Part shown: piece after piece, positions 25,231 through 58,849 of the stretch | Position numbering within the stretch: position 1 is the stretch's first letter | How the letters are laid out: the number at the start of each line of letters is the position of its first letter | Assembly: GCF_042242105.1 (NCBI RefSeq) | Contig: NC_092030.1 | Coordinates: 2,677,501 to 2,741,500, forward strand | Direction of reading: 5' to 3' | Source of the DNA: Pempheris klunzingeri | Lineage: Eukaryota; Chordata; Actinopteri; Acropomatiformes; Pempheridae | DNA length: 64,000 nucleotides | Made by a program: the position numbers and the translations under genes | The notes under the pieces: generated by a model | What the model was told of the DNA's origin: nothing | The model's input: the letters and a program-made list of their open reading frames with translations, nothing else | The model's database searches: none

Positions 25231-27979
25231 ATGGACTCAGGCCAGCTCATGTGGTCCATTTTCCTCGCAAGTCTGACAGTTTTCCAAGGTAAAATGGGAT
25301 CTATACATATATTTTAGACATTCTAACTTAACTCCAGCCAGTCTGTAAACATGAGATTAGGTGCAGGAGCGTTCTACACATTTTCTTTATACTTAAACAT
25401 GAAGGAGGCAACATGGCGGCCATCCCTTTGCTCCATAGCTTCACAGTCACGATCTTAAGTTCACTCTTAATGCAGGGCGGTCAGTTCTAACTGCATGAGC
25501 TGAAGAAATCCAAGTCAGACATTTGTAAATGTCAGTTTAACATTCACGTTGAATGTAATGCAGTTGCTTCTTGGACCTTAGGCAGGCTGGATGAAAACAA
25601 AAATACCCGTGATAGTTTACTATGTTGGCTAACGGAGCTTTGAGGTTAGTTTGACCATGTTGTGATGAGTTTAACTTTCCATGTTTTTTTCTTATTCTTC
25701 AATAACAATGCGATCTGCCACACAGGACTCTGTAGGTTTTCTTATCATCTACAACTAGGCTAAAAGTCCCTCTGCAGCTCACCATGCAAACAAATCACAG
25801 GAGAAATGGTGCATGAATGCTTTTCTGAAAACTTTTCTGTTATTTCTGCCCAACATTTTTGAAAGGTGTTCCTAAATCTTAAAACCTTAGTTTTGACTTA
25901 CAGCGCAGCTTCTCTGCAAAAATCCTCTTTGTTCTTTCTCTTTAGGCAAATTCTACAATTCATCCGATCTATGACTTGGACTACTCCAGTGACAGGCCCA
26001 TCATATCGTCTAAGGCTTCACCTTCATACTTTGTCCTAATGTCAGTGTCTCTATATGTTTATAGGTCGAATTTTAGGATGCCGTCAAGGCCAGTGGCAGT
26101 GTGATGATGGAAACTGTATCCCTGACGTGTGGCGATGTGATGGAGATGGAGACTGTCTGGATGGATCTGATGAAATGGACTGCACTGGTAGCCATACTTC
26201 CTGTTCCTGTGCCAAAGACTTGGGACTATCAGATTGTCCAAACTGCTTCACTTGCATTTGTCGTAAATGTTTGTTTGTCCAGTGTTGGTCTGAAACGGTG
26301 AACACCTTCTTTTACGAGTCATATTTTTGTAGAATCAGCAGAAATGATGGCAGATACGTTCCTAAATCACACTTTAGTAAACAAACTTTCATTGCTTTGC
26401 AACAATGAAACCAAAAGTCAGAAAGTTGTACAAGATGGCAGAAGCAAAAACAGTTTCCCACAGTTAACTTTAATATTTTCAATTCTCCAAGTTAACATAC
26501 AAGATTTTATTGATTCATTTAGGACTGTTATGCTACCAGTGTTTTGGTTATGTTGATTCACAGGTCGGGGACCATAAGAGAAAACTACTTCAAACACATA
26601 AAATGATGTTACTCAGAACTTTTGGACTTAAGGAGAAAATCTTCACTCTGTCTTGTTTTCTTCCCCCCAGCACGTCCAGGCTCTCCTGAATGTCCGCCGG
26701 GGCAGTTTCCTTGTGTGGACTCAGTCGGCTGTGTTGACGCGTCCGCCCGCTGTGACGGGCAGAGCCAGTGTCCCACCGGATCGGATGAGGAAAACTGTCC
26801 AGCTGTCCAGAGCTGTTTGGAGTCTGACTGGACCTGTCGCAACCACATCTGCATCCCCAAAGAGCTGCGCTGCAACGGACTGAATGACTGCCTGGACAAC
26901 TCTGATGAAGAGGACTGTGGTGAGGGAAATGGAGGGTTGACCCATATCAGTGAAACATGCACTTTCTCATTTATGTCCAGTGGACACATGGTACTGTACA
27001 GATAGTTTGGGCTTTATTTTTCCAGGTATTGAAATGATCTTATTCAGGGTGAGAAAGAAAATGGGCTTCTTTGTTATTTGTGTGAAGCAACCCTTTAAAA
27101 TCAGTCTATAGGTACGGTCATTTTAAACCTAGAGCTGGCAAGTGTGTGCATCTTAATTCATATTTAGTGCTTTTATTTAAACGTCAGCAGTTTGATGGTT
27201 CGGTACTGCTTGTCTGTTGTCTCACAGGTCTGTGTGGAGAAGAAGGCATGCGGTGTCCAGAGGGGACGTGTCTGACGCCTAAAGAGAGGTGTGATGGACA
27301 GTTTCACTGCTCAGATGGCAGCGATGAGCCCATAACATGTGGTACGTTTGAGACCGATGACAGCTGCTGCAACAAAGCACCTCACGCTTTACCTCTACAA
27401 TAATCAGTTCCAGTGGAGTATGTCTGGGTTTCTATAATGCTGAGCTATGGTGTTCATCCCACAGGTCGTATTTGCGCCATGAACAACGGAGGCTGTAGCC
27501 ACGTGTGTGTCGATGAGGCCTGGGGAGCTCTGTGTGCCTGTCCTGTCGGATATAAGCTCTCTCCCAATGGAGCAGTCTGCGAAGGTGTGTGTCAATTTCA
27601 GGTTTTTTAAGGGCTGATTGAGTTTGCTGCAAGGATTTTGCTGCATCACAAAAACACTGTCAATGGACGGCGCTGAAAGCCGACTAAAAATATGCTCTCT
27701 TCTATTAGAAAAAAAAAAAAGATTCAAGAGTATTTGGAGCCTTTGAGTTTTCAGAAGGAGCTCCCTTTTGCAGCTGTATAATCATCTGTTTCCAAGTCTG
27801 TTTTTGATGCACAGTTCATGCTGAATAAGCCCGAACCCATTCTCCCTCCTCAGATTTGGATGAGTGTGCCCCGTCTTTTGCTCCCTGTACGCATCACTGC
27901 ACTAACACAGTTGGATCCTACTATTGCCACTGCAGAGAAGGCTTCAAACTGAGTGGAAGCTCCGCATGTCTAGCTACAG
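25231..27979 (+). other. lrp13: Receptor N-terminal block: signal peptide, 4 LDLa, 2 EGF
   Basis: Exons 25231-25288, 26065-26187, 26671-26919, 27228-27341, 27465-27584 and 27854-27979, all joined in phase 1. The LDLa modules start at [31 protein letters not shown] and CGEEGMRC. The first EGF is [13 protein letters not shown] and the second (DLDECAPSF...) has the calcium-binding start. This matches the opening of LDLR/LRP proteins just before a propeller. Confidence 0.88.
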
Positions 27980-30900
27980 GTACTGAGGCTGTTTATTCAA
28001 ATCGAAGGTACACATGATCGACGTTCACACGTCGGCACCTTCACCTAGTTGTTTGGCCTCATCATGAGCCACGGACAACACGGAGGGCAACAACACAGGG
28101 TATTCTGACACAGTAGCTAACATGCAACTTCAAACTTAATGCCAGTGTTGGTGAATTAGTCATCAGCTAATAGGACCTACTGTGGATTTAGTTTCATCCT
28201 TTTGTAAAAAGATCAAACACTTGGACAAAAGATAATAGACATGTTAATGAGCTCCTTTTTGATGTGGCTGAGCTAATGAGAGAACCAAGAAAGAAAAGCT
28301 CAAAAAGATCAAAGATGGAACTTGAAATGCAAACAATGGAGCAGGATGCATCAAAAAAAGATGATAGAATTGGCAAATAATGAAATGAGATGCACAAAGT
28401 ATTGTAAAGTTATCAAAGTTCTCTTTTTCTGCTCTTTTTTTTTTCTTTTAGCAAACACTTTAGGTTTTTAAGGGGTGACCCTAAAAGTCGACTGTTTGAT
28501 GATTCAATGTGAATCTCCCATTCAAATGATCACAAAATATGGTTATGAAGCAAAGGATCATTCCCTTCATGCTGTATGCAGGATTTCTTGAGAAATTAAT
28601 CCTGCTTTTCTCTGAGTATCCATGTCTGTACCAAATGACAGACCCACTACTCCACCCTGTGCTGACTTTTCTACTTCTACAGACATTATTTATCACAGCA
28701 ACCAGAGCGTCTCAGCTGGGAAAAGACACATCCAAAGCACTCTGTCTGTGGAACTGTAACTAATTAATTAATTAATTCTGATGTAAAATGAATCTAAAAT
28801 AGGCAAACAAATGATTAGTGAGAGCATTTTAATTGGGTGTTTACAGATCTTTTGTGTTTTGTGAAAGAAACGGAAACCAACATCACAAATGAGAATATGG
28901 ATCAACAAGCAGACGAAGATGGGCAAGTCTTGATGAGTCATTCAATTACGACAACTTAGTCAGGAACCCCCTTAAACTTCCTCTTCCTCATGTCACTAAC
29001 TAAAAGAAAAGTCAAACTTACTCCAATCTGACGGCACCCTTCTCTCTGAATCCATGAATGTGTCCAGGTGATGCTGTCAGATTGCTGACGGTGCAGAGGA
29101 AATCTATCGGCCTGCTGAATGTCAAGTCTCAACAGTTTGAAGTAATCCAGACTCCAGTACTTGACCCAGTGGCTTTGAGTTTTGATGTTTCCCGGGGGTT
29201 GTACTACTGGGCTGACAGTCATGGCAGCATTTACAGAAGTGATGGACAGCACAGCTCGACAGTCTATAACGGTCAGTGAACCCAGGATGTGTGTTTTTAT
29301 TTCTGCGTGTGCGGCTTTCTGATGATACAGCTGCTTATGTATTTAACAGTGATAAGTTACATATGTATTGCACGAGCAATGGCTAACTTTAGCTTTAGCT
29401 GGGCTTAAACACACACTGAGATGGCTTGTTATGGTGTCTTTTTTTTCGATAGTTGAGTGGAGTGGTTCCCAACCTGTTGTTCCTTAAAGCAAAGCAGTGT
29501 GTCCTTGTGGTCACACGTCAGCAGCTGTAACCAGCTCAAGTCCAGGACACCGAAGATTGTTCAGTTCTTATGAGGGGAAAAAAAGCAAAGATTAGAAAAA
29601 TAAACTATTTTGTTTGTGTTTTTTCTGCCTTCATATCCTGTTGGTAGTTTTGTAACCTTCCAGATTGAACTTTGGACCCTTGTGGAGGTCCCAAAACACA
29701 GGTTTGGAACTGCTGGTGTGATTCATCAGTTGGTTGCATGACAACATTTCTGAACCCAGAAACAAATAAGTTTCTCTTCTGCACTTTTCCGTTCCTTCTC
29801 TTGCCCTGGTCTTCTGAACAGTGTGGTTTGTGCATTCGAATGTCAAAGTTTGGAGTGTTTATTATGGTTATGTTGACTTAAATGGTCACTTGGCAAGTGT
29901 TTTAACAGGGGAGCCTGGAATCAAGGGTCTAGCCTGTGATTGGCTGAATGGAAACTTGTTCTGGACCAATCAAAAGACAGCATCAATCTACATGCTGGCA
30001 GCTGATGGGAAGAGTTACACTACTCTGCTGAGCAAAAGCACCATCCCATCAGAGTTGGTGCTTCTACCTGTGGAGAGGTACGCTTTTCTCCTGTCTGTCA
30101 GCTTTATAGGATTGACACAAATCTCATTTCTAATATTTCTAATGTTATTAAATGATGATCATGGTCTCTGAAACAGTAAATCCACCCTTTTCGCTCTTTT
30201 CTGTGGGCAAGAAATGAAATGCGTATCTACACAGTGTGTGGAACTGGAAGATTGAACAGTATTTTGCAATAGTTTTGAAACGAGCTGTTAAATTTGATTT
30301 ACTTGGCACACGTGAGACTCCAGCCATCATGAATGCACCCGAAGAGGTGATGATACACTCGGCCGTGCTTATTCAAATTCTCTGCTCTCTGCCTCCCAGC
30401 TTGATGTTCTGGATCAGCGCCGGCAACGGGGACAGAGTGACATTAGAGAAGTCATGGATGGATGGGTCAGAAAGAAGCTCTCTGACTGTGCTCACTGCTC
30501 AGTCGGCCCACAGCCTCACTGCTGACGCTGCTGCCAGGAGGCTGTACTGGATCAGCGACTTCAAGAAGGCGAGTTAAGGAAAGAAACGCAGGCCGGGGAT
30601 TTTTACACAGAGTGCATAAAACCATGATAGTGTGACGTGAACCAGGATGAATAATTCAGTCATATTCTTGATGCAAATCATTGGAAAAATACAAATCGTC
30701 TTTGCTATTAAACTGACAATGAAATGCACAGTTATGTATATTTGCTGCAATTTCTCATCAGCCATGTTTAAACTAGCCAAACTAGCCATATACCAGTGAT
30801 CTTAGGCTCAGTATATTTAAAATGTTCATACATTTGGGCAAACCAAATAATGATACCTGATTTAGAACTTCTTTTATACTTCTTTCTGGCAGTGCAGAGC

Positions 30901-33900
30901 TTCATTTCTCAACATCGAAGTAGAATAATAGACTGAGAATAATGTAGAGTTTTTGGCTTCTTGTCCAAATCCTCTTGGGAGGTAGCAGCCTGTGGCCCTG
31001 CCTCACTTTACTCTAAGCTCATGAACGAAGAAGATAAAAGGCGGAGAAATTGCTTCACTCAGTTGGCGTGATGAGAATATGACAACCTAACCATCAGTTG
31101 TCAGTCACATTTCTTTGTTGTCCTTCTCAATTAACATGAACTTCTCTCATTCAGTCTGTAGAGACGGTGAAGGTGGACGGGACCGGCCGGTACTCCTTCA
31201 CACGCCTGTTCAGCAGGAGACCGGCTCTCAGTCTGGCTGTGTTTGAGAATTTGTTCTACTGGGTGGATGACAAAGGACTGTGGCAGGTTCCACAGAACCG
31301 ACCAGACCAGAAGACCTTTATCTGGAAAGCAGCCGTGCCAATATTATCTGTTTATCATGCGCTCCAGCAGCCACAAGGTACTTATCGGAACAACAGATTT
31401 AATGGTAATACAAAATGCTTCTCGGTTACAATATTTCTTCATCTTTATTTCCACTTAAGTTGGAGCTTGTGGTTCTCTCTTTATGCCACGTATCCAGTCA
31501 TGGTCACATCCTAAAGGAGAATTGTTGACCAATGTGAATATTCACTTCTGTTTTAAGATGAAGTCTGTAATATAACAAACATATTTGAATACTTGAACAA
31601 AGCAGTGTGAGTATATTTTAGTCATCGTTGTTGTTTCTTTCACACCTGATGGTGTCCACATTGTCTCGTCTTGTCTCAGGTTCCTCTGCTTGTGCAGAGA
31701 CTCAGTGTCAGCTCTGCCAGCTCACTAAAGGCAACCCTGCTGGATTCACCTGCGCTTGTCCGAACTCCAAAGTACTGTTGGTTGATGGGACATGTGAATG
31801 TGGGTTTACTATAACTTTTATTACCCTGTCTTACAGATGCATTTTTGGTAGAAGAGAAGAAACACAAGTTGTATTTTAATCTCTTAAAACAAGGCAGCTT
31901 GTCATTTTGCTTCCAACATCTCAGTTCAGGAAATGCATCCAAACCGTACATGTAAAAATGTCATATTGTCTCTTTACATTATGGGATTTCAGTCATTTTC
32001 TCTGGTCCTTTTTTAGAACTCTAAGCATGAAGGCATCGTTAATAAATCTTTTTTTTGTCCCACAGATCCGAGGTTTTTATATGCTACCAATACCAACATC
32101 AACATGTTGGAATTCCGCGGCAGAGAGTCCACTGAAACCCAGCTGTTTGCCACTGACGACGGCATCCTGTCCTTCGATCTGGACTGGTACAGAGACTGGC
32201 TGTACTGGGCCAACCAGACTGGTCATGTCCAACGCACCAGTCTAACCCAGGTCAAGACTGAGGTGGTCCCAACACCTTTGCCAGGTTAATGCTTTTGGTT
32301 TTCCTTGACTTGTACAGACATAACTAATGTTACTATCTTCACCAGCTCAGAGTTTAGACAACAATAAAGATTTTAAATAAAGATAAATAAAAAAATTGTA
32401 GATTAAAAGGTTGATTAATTATTTAGAAAGAAATTGACAGATGTATTGTTAATGAAAATAAGTTGGCTGAGAATAACCCATGAACCACCTGGCCGCTCAC
32501 ACATCCTAATAGCCGTCTGAACACTTTCTATTGACTCATATTTCCTTTTTTTCTTGTTGTTAGTGTGTCTGATAAAAATACACCAGAAGACTGGGAGCCT
32601 TTATTGGGTGTCATGTGACCAAAACAGCATCGGCACCACCACAGCCGACAAGCGATACCCGCAGCAGCTGTACCACACAGCAAAGGAGATCCGAGACCTA
32701 TGTGTGGACTGGCTGCGGGGCAGCATCCTGTGGCTGGAGGATGAACGAATCTTCTCCATGAGCATGATTGGAAGTAAAGTCAGAGAGCTGCTGCACTTAA
32801 CAGGAGGACTCAGGGGAAACATCGCCTTCGACCTCAGAGCCAATAGTCTTCTGTGGAACTCTAAAAGGGCAGGTCTGTCACTTCACACTGCTTGTTCCTC
32901 ACTCTCACATGTCTCAGCAGCTGGACTCTCCAGTCAGAGCTTGAGCTTATTATGACACAAGATAGTGGTACATCTTTCTGGAGAGCAGTTTTACTTCTCC
33001 AAGAACTAGACAGTACTCATTTCAAGGTTTGTTTTAGTTTATATCAAATTATCTGGGTCTCGATCACTAACTTGCACACTTTGATTTCATCCAAAATAAA
33101 AATCATTAAATGATTAAATGTGCTGTGATACTGCAGCAGTAGGAGCTGACTGTGTTCAGAAGCTTTGGCTGGGTTATAATTAGTTTAGGGACTGTGACAA
33201 TAATAATGCTCTGAGTCATCCCAGAGGCTAAACAGTTCATGATAGTTCTGTTGGCTCTAAAAATGTACAACTTAACCAACATGGGCAAACTCTTGGATAG
33301 TAATTCCTACTTTTGCAGCCTGTATTTCCACCACATCAGACCTGGTGAAGCACTTTGGGGTCACTTTTTTTCAGGTTTGACAACGATGAGTTTGCTGCAG
33401 GAAAGAAGCCACCAAGCTGGTAGAAGATGGAACATTTCAGGCTCAGTCATGGCTGCCTTTGAGCCCTTCCTGTTGTCCCTTTCTGATGATGTCATGACTG
33501 TCTGGGACCGCCGTGATGGGAGCCCCGTCCGAGACATGAGCGTGAGAGGTCACGTGTTGGGTGTAATCGTTGCACTCAGGGACATACGTGCAGGTCAGAC
33601 AAAGTGAATCTGTTAGAGGAAATAAAATAACTCAGACGGACACGCTGTTGCTTTTATTCATTTAACAGTATTTTGTTTTGACCTTTTTATTTGAAGGCCA
33701 CAGATTTGAACTAACATACCTCTTAATTATAACTCTCCATAGTACCCAATACTCCAGTCTGCAGTGAACCCTCTGTGCTGTGCCGACATACGTCTGTCTG
33801 CATCTCACAAGCCCAGCTGTGTGACGGGAAAAAGGACTGCCCTGATGGAGATGATGAGGATTTATGTGTTGCCACGTGTCCATCTGAAGGTAAAGTGTCA

Positions 33901-36900
33901 TCATCATAAATTCATGTGTTTCTTGAGCAATGGAGCTGTAAAATTATATGAGTATTAACATTCACCACTAACTTCAGTTTCCCAGCTTTGAGAATTTGTA
34001 GTAATTTTCTCTGCTTTAATTTCCAACCTTAGAGGACTTCAAGTGCGAGGACCAGAGGAGCTGTGTCCCCAGGAATCTTGTTTGTGACGGTCGTTCTCAT
34101 TGTGCTGATGGCTCAGATGAGGTCGACTGTCCGGCCGTGGCCTCCCCTGTCGCTCGGGTGAACATCCTGAAGTGTCGCACAGGCTCAAAGCCGTGTACAG
34201 ATGGCACAGAGTGTGTTTTATACAGCCACGTGTGTGACGGGGAAAAGGACTGCAGGGATGGATCAGATGAAGAGGGATGTGGTGAGTTTCCGAAGACGTA
34301 GTTTCAGTTATTGGAAAAACAGCAGTTGCAGAACTGAAAGAAACAATTCCAGTTAGATTAGTGGATTTGTAATATAATATCCCACATATATAATTTAACT
34401 GTTATATTTATTTTAACTTTACTATCTTTGTCAAGATGCCTCAGTAGAGACCAGGACTCCAACAAAACCAAGTGTGGACCCATCGTACGAAGTTCCTCCT
34501 GCTCCGACTGTGCCGACCTGCAGCAGCCCCTCCGTGCCCTGCCCCCATTCTGCTGCGCACGTCTGCATTTCTCCGAGCCAGTTTTGCAATGGACGTAAAG
34601 ACTGTCCTGATGGCTTTGATGAACAGAGCTGTGTGAAAAGATGTCCCTCGAAAGGTAAGCCTTGAATGTGTGTGTGTTCTTCTGGCTGGAGACGTTATGA
34701 GTTTCCCTCTGCTCGGATGTTATTTTGAAAATAATTCACACTTTAACAGACTCTGTCAACGAGGCCCAAAACTTGGAAAACGCATTTTGTTTTCCTTAAT
34801 GTCCGTCTAGATGACTTCCGCTGCAAAGACCGCAGGAGCTGCGTCTCAAAGAGTCTGGTTTGTGACGGCCGCTCTCATTGCCACGACGGCTCAGATGAGA
34901 TCAATTGTCCGAATGTAACTCCGCCCCCAGACCGGGCAAACGTCCTGAAGTGTCGTATGGGCTCAAAGCTGTGTAAAGACGGCAAAGAGTGTGTTCTCTT
35001 CAGTCACGTTTGTGATGGAGAGAGAGACTGCAGGGATGGATCAGATGAAGAGGGATGTGGTGAGTTTCTGTTCTGTCTTCACAATCAGTTTGAGAAGTTA
35101 GAATAAATAAGCAAGACCTTTTATGACTTCAACTAATTGCTGTGTTTATCACTTGTAGAAGCTGCAGAGGTTGCTCCTACTGCTCCTCCAGAAAACGTCC
35201 GCTTGAATGAGCCCCCTTTACCTGTCAAACCTTTTACTGAGCCTCCCACCAAGCCACCCTGCACCAGTCCTTCAGTTCTGTGTCCACATTCATCTTTATG
35301 CATCAACCCAGCACAGCTTTGTGATGGGAAGAGAGACTGCCCTGATGGATCTGATGAGAACTGTGTGAAACGATGTCCCTACAAGAGTGAGTGATCAGAT
35401 TATGGGCTGACTGAGACAGTTTCTCTGATCTTAACCACATTGGAATAGTAGAGAGTTCTGCATTATGTTTGATATTAAATGCCTTCATCCTCAGCTGACT
35501 TCCGCTGCAAAGACCGCAGGAGCTGCGTGTCAAAGAGTCTGGTTTGTGACGGCCGCTCTCATTGCCACGACGGCTCAGATGAGATCAACTGTCCGAACGT
35601 AACTCCGCCCCCAGACCGGGCAAATGTCCTGAAGTGTCGCATGGGCTCAAAGCTGTGTAAAGACGGCAAAGAGTGTGTTCTCTTCAGTCACGTTTGTGAT
35701 GGAGAGAAGGACTGCAGGGATGGATCAGATGAAGAGGGATGTGGTGAGTTTCTGTTCTGTCTTCACAATCAGTTTGAGAAGTTAGAATAAATAAGCAAGA
35801 CCATCACAAAGAATCAAATTTCAGAAATAGCATTGATACCAGTGGCTTAAAATGCAAACTTTGCCATATGATCACATTAGTAATAATTCAAAGATATTTT
35901 GTTTTGAAATGGACCTTTTATGACTTCAACTAATTGCTGTGTCTATCACTTGTAGAAGCTGCAGAGGTTGCTCCTACCGCTCCTCCAGAAAACGTCCGCT
36001 TGAATGAGCCCCCTTTACCTACCGAAGGCTTTACTGAGCCTCCCACCAAGCCACCCTGCACCAGTCCTTCAGTTCTGTGTCCACATTCATCTTTATGCAT
36101 CAACCCAGCGCAGCTTTGTGATGGGAAGAGAGACTGCCCTGATGGATCTGATGAGAACTGTGTGAAACGATGTCCCTACAAGAGTGAGTGATCAGATTAT
36201 GGGCTGACTGAGACAGTTTCTCTGATCTTAACCACATTGGAATAGTAGAGAGTTCTGTATTATGTTTGATATTAAACCTTCATCCTCAGCTGACTTCCGC
36301 TGCAAAGACCGCAGGAGCTGCGTCTCAAAGAGTCTGGTTTGTGACGGCCGCTCTCATTGCCACGACGGCTCAGATGAGATCAATTGTCCGAACGTAACTC
36401 CGCCCCCAGACCGGGCAAACGTCCTGAAGTGTCGCATGGGCTCAAAGCTGTGTAGGGACGGCAAAGAGTGTGTTCTCTTCAGTCACGTTTGTGATGGAGA
36501 GAGAGACTGCAGGGATGGATCAGATGAAGAGGGATGTGGTGAGTTTCTGTACAAATGCTGCAAAATGTATCATTTTCACAATCAGTTTGAGAGGTTAGTT
36601 ATAAGCAAGGCTAAGAATCAATAGTCTGGCTTATGACTACTGACTGACTCCTAGAAATCTTGAACCTTGTGCTTATTTGTATGTTAATCATTACTATTGC
36701 GTTCATATGACAAAGGTATTTTGATGTTTTTAAAATGGAACTTTGAACCTCATCTTACTTTTGTGTCTATCACTTGTAGAAGCTGCAGAGGTTGCTCCTA
36801 CCACTTCTACAGGAAACGTCCACTTAAATGAGCCCCCTTTACCTACCGAAGGCTTTACTGAGCCTCCCACCAAGCCACCCTGCACCAGTCCTTCAGTTCT

Positions 36901-39900
36901 GTGTCCACGTTCATCTTTATGCATCAACCCAGCGCAGCTTTGTGATGGGAAGAGAGACTGCCCTGATGGATCTGATGAGAACTGTGTGAAACGATGTCCC
37001 TACAAGAGTGAGTGATCAGATTATGGGCTGACTGAGACAGTTTCTCTGATCTTAACCACGTTGGAATAGTAGAGAGTTCTGTATTATGTTTGATATTAAA
37101 TGCCTTCATCCTCAGCTGACTTCCGCTGCAAAGACCGCAGGAGCTGCGTGTCAAAGAGTCTGGTTTGTGACGGCCGCTCTCATTGCCACGACGGCTCAGA
37201 TGAGGTCGACTGTCCGAGTGCAACTCCTCCTGCAGCTCCAACAAACGTCCTGAAGTGTCGTATGGGCTCAAAGCTGTGTAAAGACGGCAAAGAGTGTGTT
37301 TTATACAGCCACGTGTGTGACGGAGAGAAGGACTGTATGGATGGATCTGATGAAGAGGGATGCCCAGAAACCTGCAAGCAAGGTTGTTTCACTTTAAACT
37401 TTTAACTCTGACATAAAAGCAAAGTTCTTTTAACGCTGTTTAATACAAATAATCATACCTTTTTCTTTGCACTCCACCCCAGGTGAGTTCCAGTGCTCTC
37501 ATGGGAAGATGTGCATACCTGGGAATCAGGTGTGTGATGGGAAGTCGCAATGTCGGGACCAGTCTGATGAGCTGAACTGCAGGGAACAAACAAAGAGCTG
37601 CGAACATCGCTGTGCTGACGGCAATCGCTGCATCCCAAAGAAATTCCTGTGCGATGGAGAGCGAGACTGCCTGGATGGCACAGATGAGGAGGGCTGCGGT
37701 AAGTCTTCAGAGTCCAGTTTTCTAGTATAATTCACTGGTGAAGGTTAATGCAGCTGCATAGTTCCTTCTACCAATATAACAATCCTGCCAGTTAGTACTC
37801 TAACAATTTAAGTTTGACACCTAATTCTGTCCTTTCCAAACCCGGTTACAGCTGCAACAACAGAGTCTCCTGTTCCCACTTCCACATCACCTTGCATCAC
37901 TCCTTCAGTTCTCTGTCCAGGTTCATCACTGTGTATCTCTCAAAATCTACTGTGTGATGGACAAAGAGACTGCCCTGATGGCTCTGATGAAAACGACTGT
38001 TTGGTCCAATGTAAAAACCCAGGCGAGTCTGCCAATAACCACAAGAGGGAAAGGTAGCAATAAGTTATGTATCTGGCAAAGTAATGACAGCATGGACTCA
38101 CTGTGGGAAAGCTTCAGAGGAAAAGTGAAAGTGCTCTAGTTTCTTCACAACACCTGCACTGCTATGTTAACTCCCTCCTGCTCCTCAAATTGACACCGTT
38201 TCGTCCTGCACATCAGATGACTTCTTGTGCAGTGACCGGCGGATGTGCATCCCCAGAATGGAAGTGTGTGATGGTCGTGCCCACTGTCCTGACGGGTCAG
38301 ATGAGAAGCAGTGTCAATCAGCAGATTCTACTGCTCCGTGTAAGCAAACAAGAAAAACACAGTGGAATAACGTGCACAATCAGTAGATGAAAAACAAACA
38401 TTTGTCAAACACATTTGTCATCCCACAGCAGCTGTAATTCTTGCTAGGCGACACACAGTGCCATGATTTCTAACACTTTGCTAGGGTGTTGATGTTTGTT
38501 TTTAAAAAAATGCATATAATTTTCTCTTTGCCAAGCCTCCGACATGCCGAGTGCCAAACCAGCCCCACTGAGGTGCCGCAAAGGTTTCAAGCCATGCAAA
38601 GATGGCCTGGAGTGCGTTATGTACAGCCACGTGTGTGACGGAGAGAAGGACTGCCAGGACGGGTCCGACGAAGAGGGATGTGCTGCTCAGTGCAAAGCAG
38701 GTTTGTTCTGCGCTTCGAGCTGGTAACAAGCAGCATAAAACGACAATCTGTTATTTCAGCTGCACAGGAAAATGTCCACATGTTCATTTGTCATGTTAAG
38801 GGGCTGTTTTCAGTATGCAACACCATGAACTTCATATTTGATCCTCATTTCTTTCTGTGGCGTTTTGAGCCACGTATTTATCAGTTGGCAGCACTAAGGT
38901 GTTTTCTTTGGTTTTGGGTTTTGCCTTGTTTTTTTTTTTTTTTGTTTCTCAGGCGTCTCTCAGGATATGTTGAGGTGGATTTCTTTTTGTTTTTATTTAA
39001 GGCTAAATTTGACCATTTTCCAGGAAGCCACCAGAGTGTTAAGCACAGTCAGTAGATAGTTTAGTGTAGTAGTCAGTAATACATTGAAAAATGGATGCTC
39101 TCTATGTAGGGAATTATCTGTAAGAAGTCTCTCTTGCCTTCCCTAGATGAGTTCCAGTGTGCTCACGGGAATAGATGCATCCCACCGGAGCAGGTGTGTG
39201 ACGGGAGGAACGACTGTCAAGACCAATCGGATGAAAAGGACTGTTCACGTCTGATTGAGGGCTGCCATCAGCACTGTGATAACAACACTCGCTGTATATC
39301 GGAGACCTTCTTGTGTGATGGCGAGAGAGACTGTGCTGATGGGTCGGATGAGGAAAAGTGTGGTAAGTGATGGCCAATATTTACTTGAATAGAAAGTTGT
39401 ATCAAAACTCATGGTAAATGTTTCTAAAATGAAGACTAATATAACACTTTAAGTTATTTCTATCATCCTCTTTCCAGGTTCGGTGGCCTGTGCGATCGAC
39501 CAGTATCGCTGTGCTAGCGGCCAGTGTGTGTCTGAGGCCCTGAGATGCGATGGATATGCTGACTGCAGCGACCGCTCTGATGAGATGGAGTGCACCAGAC
39601 CCCCGCGCTGCCCGGTGCAGCTCAGATGCCGGCACAGCCATGAGTGCCTGCAGAAAGAGTGGCTGTGTGATGGTGAGGACGACTGCAAAGATGGGTCAGA
39701 CGAGAAGGTATGAAGATCCAGTTACAGGTGAAGTAAATCTGTTTTAATGAGTAGAGGCAATGATTGAGGGAAACTTTCTTTGCTTCTCGAGCATTCAGCA
39801 TTTTACGATGATGCATACTGGAGCTAAGCTTGTCTAAAGAGAGGATGCTTGTTTTGAGGTTGGGAAGCAGCGGTTGAACCGCGGTCTCGTCATTTGTATC

Positions 39901-42900
39901 CAGAACTGCATGTTACCGGCAGCAAAGTGCAGGGAATACCAATGGCAGTGTGGCGACGGCAGTCAGTGCATCCCTCTGTCCTGGAGGTGTGACGGGAAGG
40001 AGGACTGTTACAACCGCATGGACGAGGACAAATGTGAGCATGCGTATTCTCAAACATTCACCACTGCTCGCCTCCTGACTGACTGCTTTATTCTCTGCTT
40101 CACATGTTCTTGTTTTCATACATTACTGGAATGCTTTCACGCCTATTTTGATTTTTAAAATGACTGTAATTTTTAGTTCATTCAATATCTGCCGTCTATG
40201 ATATGAAACCTAAAAAACTAAATTATAACCTATGTATGGTCTATTCAAGTGTACCTATTCTATTTACTAAAATGAAGTGTACATAGTCAAATTCAGTGGC
40301 AGGATTCTTCAGTCATGCATCCATGATATAATTTTGAGGTACTTTTAGCTGCAAAAGCGGAAATGCTGTCCAATACAACACAATATTTTAGAAACTGCAG
40401 ACGACCTCTGACACACAGTGAATGTTTGCGTCTGCTCTTCAAAGGCAGCCAGAGGAAATGCCCCCTTCACCTTTACCAGTGTGGCAGCGGTGAGTGTGTG
40501 GACCCCGGCCTGGTGTGTAACGGCTTCACCAACTGTGCCGACAGTTCTGATGAGGGAGTTGGATGTGTTCAGCACAACTGCTCCAGCCCATCAGCTCCTC
40601 AGTGTGACCACCACTGTGTCAGCGCCCCAAGTGGACCGGTCAGTACGGAGCCAAGCCACTCTTGGTACAAATTCTAGACTGAGTTTTCAGGTCCTGTTTC
40701 ATCGTCACAGCCAGTGTTTCTAGAAACATCTACACAACATTTGCATATGAATCAACACTGATTCCTTCTCCCCTGCTTTTGCTCTTCATTGTTAGAGGTG
40801 TTACTGTGCTGCAGGTTTCAAACTACACACCAGCGCTGTGTCCTGTGTGGACATCGACGAGTGCGATACGGTGCCACATGCTGCATGTAAACACACTTGC
40901 TTGAACACCCGTGGGTCTTACGTCTGTCAGTGTCACCCTGGCTTCTACCTGGAGCCTGACGACAAAAGCTGCAAGACCAAAGGTACTATAGGTCCAGACA
41001 CGGTATTTGCTGTTGAAGGAAAAACAAATTGCATTCTGTTTATTTTTGTGCTGTTGGGTTGCTCTTTGTTACTCACTCTAGAGAAGAGCCATGAAGACTT
41101 AAAGCTCTTGTTTCCGTCTCTAGACGAGCCTTTGCTTCTGGCCTCGGTGCAGTCAGAGCTGTTACTCCTGGGAGTCCGTAGCGGCACCTTGCGTCTTCTG
41201 TCCTCTGCCAATCGGCCGGTCTTCTCGCTGGATTATCACTGGGCTCAGCAGAGAGTTTACTGGCTGAGCCCCGACTACCAGAGCATCCGCTGGGCTGACG
41301 TGAAAAACTCAAACAACAAAGGGACACTTATCAAAGGTGCCACTCAGAAACTCCACAGTTGCGTATGAGATGTTGTCTGGATGGTTTACTAAAGCAACAT
41401 GATCTTACAAACATGATTAACTAATGGAAATGGAATGATTGAAGCCACACAACAAAATAATTCGGGGAGTTTAGTCAGTGACCCTAATTTTTCAGTGTTT
41501 ATATTAAATCTCGTTACAGGCGTGAAGTCAGATTTCATCGCGGTGGACTGGATTGGCAAGAACCTGTACTGGGTGGATGGGCTGGTGGGTCAGATTCTGG
41601 CTGTGAAGCTCAGCGATGCCACAGTGAGATCTCAGGACTACACTGTGGTGCTGGGTGAAGATCTGGAGCAGCCGAGCTCATTGGTCCTGCTGCCACACAG
41701 AGGGTAAGGTACCCAAACTGGGTAAAAACCTGCGGAGAAAGAATGGGGCAAAGAAATTTCCTCCAAATTTCAATCCCAGATCTTTAATCAGGACGCGCAT
41801 TGCACAATCAATATTTTCAGGTTGATGCTTTGGTCCGAGATCGGCAGCACTCCTCAGATCGAGCGGTCTGGAATGGACGGTTCAAAGAGGAAGGTGGTAG
41901 TGAGCCGAGGTTTGAGCTGGCCAGTCAGTCTGGCCTACGACCTCCTGGACAACAGGGTGTACTGGGCCGACGAGAAGCTGCGCTGCATCGGCTCAGCCTC
42001 TCTGGATGGAGACAACGTCAAGGTAACTGCCATCAGCTGACCGAAAGAAGTACTTGAATGTTTGAAGCGGCCAAAGTTTTAGCATCATCAAGAGAACCGG
42101 TGAACAGGCTTTGTCCTTCTCTCATTAGATCCTCCAGTTAGCCGAAACACCAAGCCCTTTCTCTGTGGCGATCTTCAACGACCGTCTCTTCTGGTCTGAC
42201 ACGAAAAGAAGAACCATCCGCTCAGCTGACAAGAACACAGGCAAAGATCAAAAGGTTCTTCTGAAGAGACCGGGACAGCCGTTTGGACTGAAAGTGAGTC
42301 TTCAACTTCTAATGAGGTGGTTGTAACTCCTGAAGAGTTAACATTTATATGATCACATGGGTATAAGTATTAATTGCTGTGACCCTTGATGCCTGTGTTC
42401 TCTCTCTCCCCCCAGCTGATGCACGTCCTTTCCCAGCCAGCCGTATCGAACCCCTGCGACGAGCTACGCTGCTCCCACCTCTGCCTCCTGGCCCCGTCGC
42501 TGAGAGGCAGGTCTGGAGTAACGGGGTCCCCAGGAGATCCGGCGGTGAGGGGGCCTGTGGCGATTTGTCGATGCCCAAAGGGGCTGCTACTTTCCAAGGA
42601 CAAGGTTACCTGCTCTCTGCCTCCGGAATCAACTTTCATCTTGCTTTTGTCTCGTACAACAATCTACCAGGTGAATGGCCTCACTGTGTTGTCATGAAGA
42701 AAAAAACCTGCATGCCTTTTTTTTGAGCCACACACTTGTTTTCCTCGTCTGCTCACTCTTGCTTGTTTCCTTTTTTTAATCTCACCCCCCGCTACTTGTA
42801 GATTTACTTGCACTCCATGCGTGATGGTGTTGCTCTGAAAAAAATGCCAGTCAGCAGAGTTTTAGCCCTTCCTGGTGTGACGGAGGCGTCAGGCCTGGAC

Positions 42901-45900
42901 GTGTCCATCCCGGAGCTTTCTGTGTACGTGGCTGATGCAGGACAAGGATCTGTGGACGTGCTGAAACTCGGCACCTCTAGGTCGAGACAGGGACTGACAC
43001 CCTCGGGGCAAATCCTAAATCTGAGGGTAGGCATAATCAGCTTTTTATAGGAAACGGCAATTTCTTAAATCCTGGTCACAAATAGTTTTCACACTTTTTA
43101 AAAAATGTTTGATGACCTCCGTTATAAAATAAGAGTGGAGCGTTAACAGTTGATCTTTAGTGTTTCCTTGTTTGTTTTAAATTGCCCCGTTGCTCTTTTC
43201 AATTACAAATGGGTCAGTCTTGGTTTTGATGAAAATATGTGACTTCAGCCTCATCAGTAGTTCAGCAGCCGCTCCCTGGTGAAATTTTAATTCTGGAAAC
43301 TTCTCTGTCCCACAAGGATGATTCAGTCACAGCTCTGGCGGTTGATTGGGTGACCTCTAACCTCTACTGGAGCAGCAGCGAGAGGCCCGATCTCCACGTG
43401 ACCTCCCGCCACGACGGCTACACCACCTCACTGCTGCAGGGATCACTGAAGGTGAAGTCGGCTCAGCTTCACTGCTCACCTTTTGTTCTTTTCTGCTCAG
43501 CGATCATCACCTTTTACCTCTGGACGCCTGCACGGCTCCTTCCTGCCTCTAACTTTCTCTGACTTACAGCTTCTTCCTTGTCTCTTGTGGACAGTCCTCT
43601 TGCTTTGAAAATATTAACACACACTTAGGTAGCATGGACTTAAGCATAGTGTAACATAAAACAGATTTCCTCTTGGCTGCCACTTTAGTGTTGTATTTAC
43701 TGTGAAGTCAGCAGAAACATCCAGGACACTTCTGTATATGTATTTATACCTTTACCCCTTTATTTCTGTGAGCTCCTTTCCTTGTTTGTTCTAAGATACA
43801 TTTTGTTTCAACGTTATTTGCTTCTCCTGGTAAATGTAGCCTGGATCGTGTTTGTCTTTTCAGGGCACCACATCCATAGCCCTGCACCCCCCCACAGGAC
43901 AACTCTGCTACACAGCAATAGTTGTGGCAGATGGGAAGAACCAGATGGAGGTGGTCTGTGCCTGGATGGATGGCCGTAACAAAGTGGTGCTGTGGAGGAA
44001 GTCAAGAGTCCCCACTTCGCTGGTCTTTTCCAATCAGGGAACCATGATCTACTGGGCTGACACAGGTGAGGAGTTTAAAAAAAAACTCCTAATAAGAGCT
44101 TATTTTCGCAGGCTTGCTTCTCCCTGCATGTGTGTACCCATCTTATTATTCTTTCTCCAGGTGAAAGTGTAATCAGCTCCATCGGGGTGGATGGAACAGG
44201 ATATAGACAGTACAAAACTGGGCCCGGCCTGCTTATCTCCTTCACACATACTGAGAGCATCCTCCTCTGGGTCACGCTGGACAAAGGTAAAGAGGACGGT
44301 TTTTAGTAACACCCTGCTTTGAAGACTCACCCACAATGTCTGCAGGGGGGGGGAAGTCTTGGGTCTCTGTGTAATACTTTCTGTTCCACTCAAATAACCT
44401 GTTCAGTTCTGCTTGCAGAATTGAATTTCTTGTAGCTCTGAAGGCTTTCACCTCCGTTACATCTGTCTTCATCCCCTTTAGGCAGCAGATGGCATCACAG
44501 ACTAATGTAGCAATGAATTATTCAGTCAACCTCTTCTCAGCAATCTGTACTCTGAGACATCTTCAAGCATCCACTTGTGATTACCAGCACTTCTTCTCCT
44601 CTCCATCAGGCCTGCCGTTGTTGCTTTCAAATGTTTATTCAGTCTGACTAATGAAGATCAGTGAAATGACATACTTTTTGTTTCCAACCCGTGTAGATGT
44701 GACCAAACTGTGGTTCAGTGACGGTCTCCAGCCTAACCAACTGTGGTTTGAGACGAAGAGCAGCCTGTTAGAAGTCAGAGCCTACAGCGGTGACAGTCAG
44801 TCTGGTGGGTACCTATCCGGCTTTAACACAGCAAGACGGATAAGAAGCAGTAGTAAGGGTGTAATCTACAACAGGGGGGCATGCAGACTTGTGTAAATGA
44901 CTACAGTGGAACAAGTAGTCAGGAAAAGAACAGCTTTCCAGCAGGTCACAGGTAAAAGTAAACATGCAGGGATGATTAGAAAGCTCCACGCACAGCCGGT
45001 AATAAAAGCTGTCCTTCATAAACTGTATACTGAGGTTGGTTGTTGAGAGGAGGAGTACATTAGCAGGCAGGTGATCTCAACAGGAGTGAGATCACCTGGA
45101 AAGGAAAGGAAAGTGTCCACTAGATGGCAGGTGGGGTCTGACGGGGTGTAGAGGATTCCAGCACAGACTTGAAATACGAAGAGTCTGAAGGACGCTGAGC
45201 AGGATTCAGTGTGACACAAATAAAGCAATGAGACCAGAAGAGTAGCACCACAATAGTATCAAATAACAAAGCAAAGTTGTAAGGATGCAAACTAAAAGTC
45301 CTGTGTAGAAAGTGGAGAGAGAGAGAAATCTGCATGACTTTAAAGTTTGTCCAGAGATGCTGTCCCAGTATTTAAGATGTTATAAGCTACCCGTCAACCA
45401 CTGGGCTGATTTTCCAGTTTCATAGTCCCCTCAACATACAATGACGACGTGGAGGTTCTCCTGGATGCAGTTGTGAAAATGGCTCGTCAACACTGAAATC
45501 CTCCTCACGTAGTGAACATGAGGCCTTTATTCCTGCCCTGGTTTGTAATGTTAACCAACAGGCTCAGCTCAATTTGTAAAACAGAAGCACGAAAAACCAG
45601 TTTGTCATAAATGAGGAATTACACACTTATATTTCCACTTCGACTTTGTGTTCCCCTTCTGAATGCAGAGAGCAGAAAGGGTGTGTTATCAGAGACTCTG
45701 GGCAGAATGAAAAGACTCACTTAGGCTCAGTTTGAGTTGAATAGATAGCAGAGTGATGTGATACTTGCAGAGAGATCAGGCTTGGCAATCTGTGGGAGAT
45801 CCCAGGGTGTCGCTGTATGTGCTGTAGGAGGAGAGCTCAACACACACATTTAGACAACACTCCCTCTTGCTTATTTTCTTGGCCTGGCATTTATCTACAA

Positions 45901-48541
45901 CACAGCAGCTGCAATTTCAAATACTAACAAGTTACACAGTTAACTGAACTCTTGAACGCTCCAGTGCCAGAATAAAGTCAGCGGCAAATGCCAACACACC
46001 TTTTCCTGGACATAAACCAGACTCTTTCTCAGCCTGGCACAGGAAGTGTCCTTACAGCGCCAAAGCAGATGATGTCTTCACACGTAGCCAGAGGGCCCTG
46101 ATTTTTATATATAGCCATTAGGGTTGGTAAGATTCACCTCATGTGGGTGTGTCGGCGTGAAAGTTCATGAGGTGAGAAGCATCCATAACATCTGATTATC
46201 TCTGCCGTGGATAAGCCTGGAGGTGTGTGTGTGTGTATCGAGATGCATATTGAATCAGCCTCAGTGATGGAGATCCACGTCCCTGGCAGCCATAGAGCAG
46301 AAGGAGGTCTAATGGATTATCTGTGTACCGTTGTTCTTCCCATATTACTTTATGAAGCAAGCAACCGTATGTCTGCACAAGGGAACCTATTTAATCACAA
46401 TAGACCATAGAAGTAAGACTGACAGAAGTGGAAGTTGACGAGGATCCTATAAAAATAATAATCATAAATGCTTCTGAGCATTTTTCCTATTTAAATTATA
46501 CCAAACTCATTGTGATGCTTGTTTTGTTTTATCTGCTCATAGTTGGACTGTTAAAAGTTGCTTTCCGCTGCCCAGAAGACTGTGAAGGTTTTGTGTAGCT
46601 TTTTTTGCGAACCCTCTTTTACCTCCTTCGTCCAGGAACTAACAGCTGCTCCAAAAACAACGGCGGCTGTTCCCATCTGTGTCTGCCTCATCCCGGAGGT
46701 CGGACGTGTAAATGTGGCCGGGGCTTCTCTGCTGTCGCGGCCGCATCCTGCGCCCCCCTCCCCGACTGCCCCGCTGGCCAACAGTCCTGCTTCAACGGCG
46801 AAAAGTGTATCAGCAGCAGCAAGTTCTGTGACGGACATGTCGACTGTCCAGATGAGTCGGATGAACAGGACTGTGAGTTTCAGTCAGTGGTTTAAAAAAC
46901 AAAACACATCAACGTCATGTCGATGCTAAATCTCATTTTCCCATGAAATAACCCTTTAACTGCCAAACTCAGTAAAAGGAACAATAGCCAGGGTAGATGA
47001 AGTAACATCATGATCCTAGTTGAATCACTCTTTTGCCGCTCAAAGTCAACCTTGTTTTATAAACTCAAGATTAAATTTAAAATGTTTCTAAGCTCTGGAA
47101 GTTGTTGAAGGATTAGTTCACCATTTTAGAAGGCTTATTTGCTTTCTAGCCGAGAGTCGCATGAAAAGATTAGCACCACTTTCATGTCTGTTTGGCAGAT
47201 ATGAAATTACCTCCAGCAGCCTGCTAGTTTAGCTTAGCATGAAGGCTTAAAGCCTCAGATATTTCCACCAGCACCTCTAAAGTTTAATGAGAACACGCTG
47301 CATTTCGTTTGTTTTAACCAGTAGAAAAACCATTGGTGGTTTTATGTGACTCAGTAGCTTCACTGTTTGCCTGGCAGCCTCACAGTGATGAGGGTTTGGT
47401 ACAGAGGTCAGTGTAGTGTAGGAACATTTTCAGTATGTAGCATTATCCCTGACGCTGACTGTCTCTTCAGGTCCGAACACAAACTCGGCCAGTAAGAACC
47501 GCTCTCCCCAGCCTTCCTCGCCGCCTCACCCCAACGCCCTAAAGACCTCTGCTATGATGGTTAAAAAGGACTCTACATCCTGTGATGTCCAACGCTGCAG
47601 CGATCACGGAAAGTGCATCACAGCAGGCAAAGTCTCTCACTGCCAGTGTTTGCCTGGGTACAAGGGAGCCTCCTGTCAAGAGACGGACACTGGACAAAGC
47701 CACGTGGCTGTGGTCCTGGGCATCTTCTGCCTCGCCGCTCTATTGATGGCTGCTGCTTATATCTTCACTAAAAGGTACTCACCGTGAGGAATATGTAACT
47801 CTGTGAGGTATGTAGAAAATGAAAACATGGCTTTTGTTGTTCACAGGAGAGGCTGGGAGTCCATCAGAAGCAGACCGATGGAGAAAGAAACTCTGATGGC
47901 CAACATGAGCCTGCCATGTGAACCAGATTCAGACACGGAGGTGAAACCTCATGAATGTGGCGTACTGACCCATTCAGTTAACTCCACCAATACCACAATA
48001 TATACATTTTAATGTTTCTGGTAAACATGTAACACTTGATTTGAGTTCATTATTGATTCTGGAAGTAGTATTTTGACTTCCAAACTCTAGGCTTCGCTCT
48101 AATCAGACACAATCAACTTTATGGTCTATTAAATACACAAAGCTTATTGATTTAAAGAGAAAAAAATCAAAAGAAAGCTTAGTGCAAGTTTATAAAGTAA
48201 GTCACTGATGGTGTCTTAAAAAAAGCAGTATCCTCACTGTTAATTATACAATTATTCAAAGTAATCTTCACATTAACAATAATAGATTATCAGTGAGTTG
48301 AGTTCCTCTTAGTACAACCACGAATAAACATTCATGTTTTTGTGCCTAAAGTAATTTCCACACCCTTTTTAAATATCAAGTATAAGCTTCTAATGCTTAA
48401 TTAAAGAACCACGTCCTGCTCTCATTAGTTGGAAAGATTTCAGATGAATGTTTCCTCTCTGTTTCTTCTCCACAGGAGCTGGAGTCCCCGGTAGACGTGA
48501 AGAACCCCTCGCTAGCGTTAATGTCACTGCAGCCCAAATAG
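25231..48541 (+). CDS. lrp13: Giant LDL-receptor-family protein, Lrp13-like (complete gene, 47 exons)
   Basis: An endocytic-type receptor of the LDLR family; the closest fit I know is Lrp13, described from fish ovary as a vitellogenin-binding receptor. I reconstructed 47 coding exons whose phases all agree, totalling 8,883 nt (2,960 residues). The order is: signal peptide ([18 protein letters not shown]); four LDLa; two EGF (the second DLDEC, calcium-binding type); propeller 1; EGF; propeller 2; 26 LDLa; EGF pair; propeller 3; EGF; propeller 4; EGF plus one LDLa; a Ser/Pro linker, EGF and a membrane segment (about [19 protein letters not shown]); and a tail of about 50 residues. LDLa modules keep the CDGxxDCxDGSDE calcium motif, and propellers carry YWTD-like LYWVDG and VYWADE. 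The start sits before the hydrophobic leader; an ATG at 25221 is out of frame. The family is certain; the name lrp13 rests on memory and could be another fish LRP. Two donors appear to be GC rather than GT. Confidence 0.85.
29068..33593 (+). other. lrp13: Receptor propellers 1 and 2 with intervening EGF
   Basis: Exons 29068-29271, 29909-30077, 30400-30568 and 31155-31377 form propeller 1, with YYWADS, LFWTNQ, LYWISD and FYWVDD as YWTD-like blades. Exon 31680-31799 is a cysteine-rich EGF-like module. Exons 32066-32284, 32564-32872 and 33375-33593 form propeller 2, with LYWANQ, LYWVSC and ILWLED. The second propeller has lost much of the YWTD signature in its last exon and has no clear EGF closing it; it runs directly into the LDLa cluster. 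The exon ending at 30568 uses AAG|GCGAGT. Confidence 0.82.
33743..37382 (+). repeat. lrp13: Five tandem two-exon LDLa cassettes (15 LDLa modules)
   Basis: Each cassette is one exon with a Pro/Thr linker and one LDLa, then one exon with two LDLa. The pairs are 33743-33889 with 34033-34281; 34436-34654 with 34811-35059; 35159-35386 with 35495-35743; 35956-36183 with 36290-36538; and 36780-37007 with 37116-37382. The last three share nearly identical exons and introns, for example the intron starting GTGAGTGATCAGATTATGGG (106-108 nt in each). Typical protein phrases are [17 protein letters not shown] and [18 protein letters not shown]. Each cassette is in phase 1 at both ends, so whole cassettes can be gained or lost without frameshift. 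Confidence 0.92.
37483..40638 (+). other. lrp13: Receptor LDLa cluster, distal part (11 LDLa modules)
   Basis: Exons 37483-37698 (two LDLa), 37852-38022, 38217-38339, 38536-38700, 39147-39362 (two), 39478-39707 (two), 39904-40033 and 40445-40638 continue the ligand-binding cluster. The 37852/38217/38536/39147 series repeats the order of the preceding 36780/37116/37483 series, but with an intron between the two LDLa that share an exon in the cassettes. The 38022 boundary is CCAG|GCGAGT; an alternative GT donor at 38011 would remove four residues including a conserved Cys. Confidence 0.82.
40796..44804 (+). other. lrp13: Receptor EGF pair and propellers 3 and 4
   Basis: Exon 40796-40982 finishes one EGF and encodes a calcium-type EGF ([18 protein letters not shown]). 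Exons 41124-41336, 41520-41703, 41821-42022 and 42129-42293 form propeller 3 (VYWLSP, LYWVDG, LMLWSE, VYWADE, LFWSDT). Exon 42416-42670 holds an EGF with an inserted Gly/Pro/Ser stretch and opens propeller 4, which continues in 42802-43026, 43317-43451, 43864-44065, 44161-44286 and 44697-44804 (LYWSSS, IYWADT, ILLWVT, LWFSDG). Confidence 0.83.
44805..46635 (+). other. lrp13: Large receptor intron, nothing coding seen
   Basis: At 1.8 kb this is the longest intron of the gene. I see no coding exon or recognised transposon. A 9-bp inverted repeat CACCTCATG/CATGAGGTG lies at 46135-46143 and 46166-46174. Confidence 0.5.
46636..48541 (+). other. lrp13: Receptor C-terminus: EGF, LDLa, EGF, membrane segment and tail
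   Basis: Exon 46636-46872 carries an EGF ([13 protein letters not shown]) and the 31st LDLa, whose sixth Cys codon is split at the splice site. Exon 47471-47774 carries a Ser/Pro-rich linker, an EGF ([12 protein letters not shown]...GYKGASC) and the membrane segment. Exons 47847-47940 and 48476-48541 encode the tail, ending [14 protein letters not shown] before TAG at 48539-48541. No NPxY endocytosis motif is present. Poly(A) signals AATAAA lie at 48627 and about 48680. Reading through the donor at 47940 would give an alternative end at 48012. Confidence 0.85.
47107..47300 (+). repeat. Teleost interspersed repeat in receptor intron
   Basis: Contains 'aggattagttcaccattttag', 'ctttctagccgagagt', 'agattagcaccactttcatgtctgt' and 'agtttagcttagcat', a sequence I recognise as a common dispersed repeat of percomorph fishes. 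The copy is diverged and its borders are approximate. Confidence 0.6.
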
Positions 48542-58646: not shown

Positions 58647-58846
58647 GATGTCTGTGCAGGATGTCTTCTCTCTCCCAAACTCAGAGTAGAGATCCAGGCA
58701 GGAGTCTCTGAGTTTTGACACAACAGCTGCTCTTAAAAAACAAGTCCGACTGAAACCTGGCAGTGGGCGGGGCACCAGCCTCACCTGCCTGCCCCCGTCC
58801 CCAAACGGGACAGGTGTGACCAGGCTGGGAGCTTTTTCATCTTCAC
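58647..58846 (-). other. cldn23: cldn23 5' UTR part of coding exon
   Basis: On the minus strand a pyrimidine-rich stretch and GGGTTGCAG precede position 58846, a convincing acceptor, so at least one upstream untranslated exon is expected. This 200-nt leader happens to be open in the same frame as the protein. Confidence 0.5.
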
Positions 58847-58849
58847 CTG

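Follow-up and report, generated by a model that had tools for sequence, protein, structure and literature searches.

The DNA analysed here (the window) is a 64,000-nucleotide (nt) stretch of the Pempheris klunzingeri genome, positions 2677501-2741500 of contig NC_092030.1 (C19 below), taken from an assembly whose 439 contigs total 645,938,514 bases. It carries on its forward strand a large gene of the LDL-receptor family, and the present subject is a tandem array of ligand-binding LDLa modules in the middle of that gene. Positions are those of the window unless a contig is named. The gene model, with 47 exons that start at 25231 and end with a stop codon near 48541, was built by hand, with exons picked by frame, splice motif and phase. 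Its predicted product of 2977 amino acids (aa) has the features of the LDL-receptor family, namely LDLa, EGF and YWTD propeller blocks and a single transmembrane segment, and contains 31 LDLa modules: four at the N terminus, 26 in the central array and one near the membrane. When the protein was run as three pieces, Pfam returned 4+15+12 LDLa stretches. Ldl_recept_b was confined by Pfam to the C-terminal half, the N-terminal half giving EGF-type families and no propeller repeat; the YWTD-like motifs of the N-terminal half and the hydrophobic transmembrane stretch were recognised by eye. Among the 46 introns, 44 are GT-AG and two, after A6 (38022) and after E9 (30568), are GC-AG.

The central array is built from a cassette of two exons, of which exon A codes for one LDLa and exon B for two (B-a and B-b). 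The initial annotation had placed five such A-B pairs, each with three LDLa, in 33743-37382, and these were found as described, with the first base of A1 and the last base of B5 as bounds and with phase 1 in and out and GT-AG introns throughout. The start of the array holds, but its end does not, since LDLa exons go on to about 40.57 kb and include a sixth cassette (A6-B6a-B6b). The cassette units measure 0.68-0.83 kb and are present in five to six copies in the assembly. Automatic repeat detection gave a family of five 300-nt copies in the region, and the longest exact repeats, 150 and 147 nt, rule out chance repetition. Every genome-wide DNA match to the cassette (at least eight) sits at the window locus, and a cassette elsewhere in the genome was therefore rejected. 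Among the matches listed, the best protein match of the cassette outside C19 was a B-b module on contig C7 (73% over 41 aa), and other places outside C19 covering A or B-a reached 33-56%.

The divergence between the copies is strikingly uneven. The A-to-B introns of copies 3, 4 and 5 are 108, 106 and 108 nt long with a common GTGAGTGATCAGATTATGGG start, as first reported, and are identical in pairs at 105/106, 106/108 and 105/106 positions (98.1-99.1%), while their identity to the A1-B1, A2-B2 and A6-B6a introns is only 39.8-44.8%. Near-identical coding sequence had also been claimed for the last three copies. This is borne out for A3, A4 and A5 (93.4-96.9%) and fails for B5, whose identity to B2-B4 is only 87.6-89.6% because its young part is limited to the first 89 nt; B2, from copy 2, is 96.8-98.0% identical to B3 and B4. 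The B-to-A introns are not uniform. The B2-A3 and B3-A4 introns agree at 98/99 positions apart from a 113-nt gap at a GACC repeat, which would be a deletion in the B2-A3 copy, since the B4-A5 intron shows a faint trace of the missing segment. The B3-A4 and B4-A5 introns share only 145/201 positions (72%), with further gaps.

Copies 4 and 5 therefore carry two different records of divergence, with A-to-B introns that differ at 1/106 positions and preceding B-to-A introns that differ at 56/201 (Fisher p=7e-11). Thus, the intron identity reflects homogenisation on an older array and does not serve as the clock of duplication for which it had been taken. Over 378 nt, the homogenised tract departs from copy 4 only in three substitutions and one 2-nt gap, with diverged flanks on both sides; two sharp junctions bound it, one inside exon A5 and one inside exon B5. 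When B3-A4-B4 was compared with B4-A5-B5, 101/1033 aligned sites differed and a 376-site stretch held at most three differences, a run found in 0/5000 shuffles. The comparison of B2-A3-B3 with B4-A5-B5 gave 63/928 differences and a 295-site stretch, again in 0/5000 shuffles. Synonymous distance, which had been proposed as a check, confirmed youth for one part of B5 and age for the other: against B3, 0/17.7 synonymous sites differed in the first 87 coding nt and 14/33.5 after them (Fisher p=0.0009, on rounded counts). In trees of six short sequences, B5 lay at zero distance from B3 in the 5' part of B, and in the 3' part fell with B1 and B6, apart from B2-B4 (partner support 0.58). The single-site patterns of exon B are mutually incompatible, with sites 35, 95, 214 and 215 joining B3 and B5 and sites 104 and 146 joining B2 and B5.

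Taken together, we conclude that older duplicated cassettes were later homogenised in tracts by gene conversion, and that at least one recent duplication of a B-intron-A-intron unit (B2-A3 / B3-A4) took place. The initial annotation had offered duplication or gene conversion. The data speak for both, and one tract is clearly conversion-like; the further dating of the growth as recent needs qualification. The B2-A3 and B3-A4 units differ at 9/105 synonymous sites and at 2/205 intron sites (p=0.0013), so the record is patchy and not that of one clean copy event. Assuming neutral change at 3-4e-9 per site and year, an intron divergence of about 1% would represent one to two million years in order of magnitude, and conversion means that the copies are at least that old. 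The exact repeats of 147-150 nt, spaced at 797-824 nt, make unequal exchange plausible. It had also been argued that phase-1 borders allow copy number to change without harm to the reading frame. The borders are as stated, but the argument is weaker than it appears, because 29 of the 47 exons of the gene are phase 1-1 and because the junctions that can be detected fall within exons A5 and B5, so that alignment of homologous sequence is by itself enough to keep the frame. The ratio of nonsynonymous to synonymous substitution (dN/dS), computed by our own NG86 script, was 0.11-0.31 for the calculable pairs among or with the older cassettes; for five older-cassette pairs synonymous saturation prevented any estimate, and dS was often high (0.8-2.9), so that the ratios are rough. 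For A3-A5 the ratio was 0.5-1.9, on very few changes. Where it can be calculated, the older cassettes appear to be under purifying selection, and the copies look coding. The exons, introns and inferred tract are collected in Table 1.

Table 1. Features of the receptor gene and its cassette array (window positions)
Feature	Position	Strand	Remarks
E1, signal peptide	25231..25288	+	ATG, hydrophobic leader (by eye), donor GT, phase 1
E2-E4, four N-terminal LDLa	26065..27341	+	Pfam Ldl_recept_a, 4 stretches
E5-E14, two EGF, propeller-like block, EGF-like, second propeller-like block	27465..33593	+	
A1, one LDLa	33743..33889	+	
B1, two LDLa (B-a, B-b)	34033..34281	+	
A2	34436..34654	+	
B2, first exon of young set	34811..35059	+	96.8-98.0% identical to B3/B4
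B2-A3 intron	35060..35158	+	98/99 identical to B3-A4 intron, minus 113 nt between GACC repeats
A3	35159..35386	+	
B3	35495..35743	+	
A4	35956..36183	+	
B4	36290..36538	+	
B4-A5 intron, old	36539..36779	+	145/201 identical to B3-A4 intron
A5	36780..37007	+	first 47 nt diverged from A4, remainder nearly identical
Putative gene-conversion tract shared with copy 4	36827..37204	+	A5 nt 48 to B5 nt 89, whole A5-B5 intron
B5	37116..37382	+	5' part young, 3' part old, 18-nt extension
C6, A6, B6a, B6b, C7, older array part	37483..39362	+	sixth cassette, B split by intron
D1-D3, last four LDLa of array, start of EGF	39478..40638	+	
E33-E43, EGF, propeller, EGF, propeller-like block	40796..44804	+	
E44, EGF plus C-terminal '+1' LDLa	46636..46872	+	
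E45-E47, EGF, transmembrane stretch, cytoplasmic tail, stop codon	47471..48541	+	stop counted from translation

For two parts of the window gene, the best match outside C19 lies on contig C7. A propeller query hit C7:24381405-24384557 in five rows, of which four show 45-54% identity and one 27%, and the membrane-near part found the same locus (46%, E=6e-15). The gene there, at C7:24.377-24.386 Mb, has 11 LDLa cores, ten in an array and one near the membrane, and its signal peptide runs directly into the first LDLa, a B-b module. Its C-terminal order, assigned by eye, is LDLa array, two EGF, propeller, EGF, propeller-like block, EGF, '+1' LDLa, EGF and transmembrane segment. Three rchy1 signatures stand beside it. 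A 62-aa piece encoded on the opposite strand, some 8 kb beyond the 3' end of the gene, gave a match to RCHY1 (2k2d, E=2.9e-8). Teleost Lrp13, the oocyte vitellogenin-binding receptor, is described in the available text of PMC9935665 with 7-13 + 1 LDLa and with rchy1 adjacent in each species compared. With 10+1 LDLa beside rchy1, the C7 gene fits the canonical lrp13.

The window gene has the same C-terminal order as the Lrp13 of that account (PMC9935665, same part), and the hallmark '+1' LDLa between the last propeller and the transmembrane segment is found in both the window gene (46636-46872) and the C7 gene. It departs from Lrp13 in other respects. Instead of 7-13 LDLa in one N-terminal array, as given in the same text, there are four N-terminal modules and a separate array of 26; module types A and B-a and a whole N-terminal half are added; and its neighbours are nodal-like, claudin and tankyrase sequences, with no rchy1 signature within the 64-kb window. 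The window gene was therefore rejected as the canonical lrp13 on array size, N-terminal half and neighbours. When modules were scored against modules, all 11 LDLa of the C7 gene had their best match in a module of the same type in the window gene, and the D modules of the two loci paired reciprocally, while A and B-a gave low, unspecific scores against all C7 modules. By these scores, the window gene is best taken as an lrp13 paralogue expanded by multiplication of the A-B pair, with A and B-a placed ahead of the B-b modules. Copies 1-5 have a fused B exon, which seems to be the derived state, because the two parts of B6 lie in separate exons and B-b of the C7 gene is a separate exon too. For Takifugu rubripes, the accessible portion of PMC11772764 reports lrp13 in two copies, each on its own chromosome, and attributes them to the teleost genome duplication; here too two lrp13-type loci lie on different contigs, a likeness by description, and no shared flanking gene was seen between the window and C7 loci.

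Two further observations concern the ends of the receptor gene. The stretch 25231-33593 (four LDLa, EGF and two propeller-like blocks) mirrors the order of the C-terminal half, with 32% identity over 577 aligned positions. This N-terminal half, which was not seen in the C7 lrp13, may come from an ancient fusion or may have been lost at the other locus. Beyond the receptor stop by 3.4 kb, at 51902-52172 (+), lies an EGF and transmembrane stretch. In a search admitting E up to 10, C19:2729402-2729641 matched E45 (32% identity, E=0.003), and by eye the stretch and E45 end in the same splice phase. It may be an alternative 3' exon or a leftover of a duplicated gene end.

As a coding tandem repeat in an lrp13 paralogue, bearing signs of concerted evolution, the array belongs to two known kinds, the LDL-receptor family arrays and the coding repeats of the LPA KIV-2 type. 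LRP2 (megalin) was the top-ranked solved structure by sequence for both pieces of the window protein tried, with chains of up to 4660 aa as against 2977 aa. To our knowledge, LRP2 has no '+1' end of the kind found in the window gene, and the LRP2-like genes of this genome are separate from it. Four LRP2-like copies stand in tandem at C20:11.14-11.33 Mb (G000, L033-L036), 49-53 kb apart and with seven variable sites in a 456-nt propeller stretch; they may be a recent gene-level amplification or an assembly duplication. LPA kringle IV type 2 is likewise a two-exon cassette in near-identical copies within one lipoprotein-related gene, for which duplication or conversion is discussed in the available part of PMC4378929, and the window gene has the in-frame multi-exon cassette with near-identical copies that characterises this type. 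The KIV-2 units are 5.5 kb long and number from 1 to more than 40 in people (PMC4378929, same part), whereas those of the window are 0.68-0.83 kb and number five to six in one assembly.

As to function, the LDLa modules of CD320 have a Trp two residues ahead of the fourth Cys that coordinates calcium and, in one module, touches the ligand, and a ligand lysine is gripped by two acidic calcium ligands (PMC4947154, in the text available). A docking aromatic was present in 0/15 cassette modules and in 5/16 other modules, with p=0.043 for a contrast looked at after the data had been seen, a point that returns below. All six B-a modules, B6a included, have His in place of the second acidic residue, as does N4, and A3-A5 carry long Pro/Thr-rich linkers. 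It appears that growth multiplied non-canonical modules, which would have a spacer or tuning role. Lrp13 binds VtgAa in white perch according to the portion of PMC4651544 at hand, and an ovary study of swordfish reports no lrp13 transcript in the accessible part of its text (PMC6517582), so that the receptor does not turn up in every case. The NPxY motif is listed for VLDLR, LDLR, LRP8, LRP4, LRP1, LRP1B, LRP2 and SORLA in the available part of PMC11772764, a list that does not include LRP13. The predicted cytoplasmic tail of the window gene has NPSL, and no NPxY was found in the three forward frames of C7:24385400-24389000, near the tail of the C7 gene.

We consider it likely that the ligand-binding array of this lrp13 paralogue is a coding tandem repeat under concerted evolution, shaped by unequal exchange and then by gene conversion. 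The anatomy, the open frame along the hand-chosen exons, the mosaic divergence and the conflicting site patterns were observed directly, as were purifying selection among older cassettes, as far as it could be calculated, and the match of modules by type to the C7 lrp13. The region forms the central part of the receptor's ligand-binding array, in which older A-B cassettes would have multiplied by unequal homologous exchange between repeats, to be overwritten in part by conversion, with the frame held by homology where junctions fell inside the A and B exons. Every cassette would be spliced in, the receptor would act on the oocyte in the uptake of yolk or lipoprotein, the amplified modules would lengthen or tune the binding rod rather than add canonical docking sites, and copy number would still be changeable through the same exchange.

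Other explanations account for part of these data. Serial tandem duplication alone, all of it recent and without conversion, would agree with copies 3-5 being adjacent, in order and 98-99% identical in their A-to-B introns, and for the B2-A3 and B3-A4 units taken alone it survives the run tests (0.316, 0.059). It is nevertheless unlikely, for the B-to-A introns ahead of copies 4 and 5 differ by 28%, B5 switches age near nt 89-90 with conflicting sites across B2-B5, and a sharp junction stands on each side of the identical tract. For copies 4 and 5, a simple recent duplication without conversion was rejected on the intron mosaic, the age switch in B5 and the run tests. Selection on the A-to-B intron as a regulatory RNA or splicing element, instead of exchange, might also explain 98-99% identity over three copies, but the flanking exons are equally identical, silent sites included, and the identity stops inside exons and not at the intron borders, so that we give this explanation hardly any credence.

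The number of modules in the protein might also be smaller than the DNA implies. If the cassettes were alternative exons, mutually exclusive or skipped, the protein would have a fixed small number of modules, and phase 1-1 throughout the cassettes would permit in-frame skipping. The splice sites are intact in all cassettes, however, and the LDL-receptor family employs LDLa exons in series, and we regard this arrangement as improbable. Two haplotypes or a misassembled repeat placed end to end, with fewer true copies, would be an error of the kind that assemblers make at near-identical adjacent copies. Each copy has private differences, such as the 113-nt gap and the diverged B4-A5 intron, the exons differ by 2-7% among A3-A5 and B2-B4, and there is no N in the window, with all cassette matches (at least eight) at this locus and 439 contigs for 646 Mb; an artefact is on this evidence very unlikely.

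Several points weigh against concerted evolution in an lrp13 paralogue with a role in yolk uptake. The run tests of B2-A3-B3 against B3-A4-B4 alone, given above, were not significant, and the conversion evidence does not fix donor and recipient among the copies. The frame is open partly by construction, because the exons were chosen on frame, splice motif and phase, and the evidence base is the genomic sequence of one animal in one assembly. Both C exons of the C7 gene match window exon C6 best, instead of C6 and then C7, and the window '+1' module scores slightly higher against B-b of the C7 gene than against its '+1'. The available text of PMC9935665 calls rchy1 the upstream gene of lrp13, whereas the rchy1 match here is found beyond the 3' end of the C7 gene and on the opposite strand. 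The contrast in docking aromatics was, as noted, post hoc. No NPxY is present in the predicted tail of the window gene, which weakens a simple uptake story, and yolk binding or uptake is suggested by analogy with published Lrp13 and with the lrp13 locus of the same genome.

The rest of the window holds a nodal-like TGF-beta fragment (PF00019) at 21772-22674 (-), a claudin (PF00822) at 57822-58937 (-) and a fragment matching tankyrase-1 over 52 residues at 62968-63828 (+). A fragment at 19196-20008 (-) matched a reverse transcriptase (PF00078) and, more strongly, ALKBH8_N (PF09004), and is probably a retroelement remnant.

The repeat number of Lrp13 is described in the available part of PMC9935665 as species-specific, 7-13 + 1, with no mechanism given there. 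The window locus offers a plausible mechanism for such change, by array growth, exon-internal exchange and homogenisation, and the unexpanded lrp13 of the same genome is its comparison partner. The number of binding modules could differ between animals. More tentatively, and with doubt, we propose a length-variable lrp13 paralogue whose conversion-homogenised cassettes, with no docking aromatic and with His in B-a, may give individuals or species a differing reach or pH response and so bear on egg provisioning. If copy number varies, the relation of module number to egg provisioning becomes directly testable.

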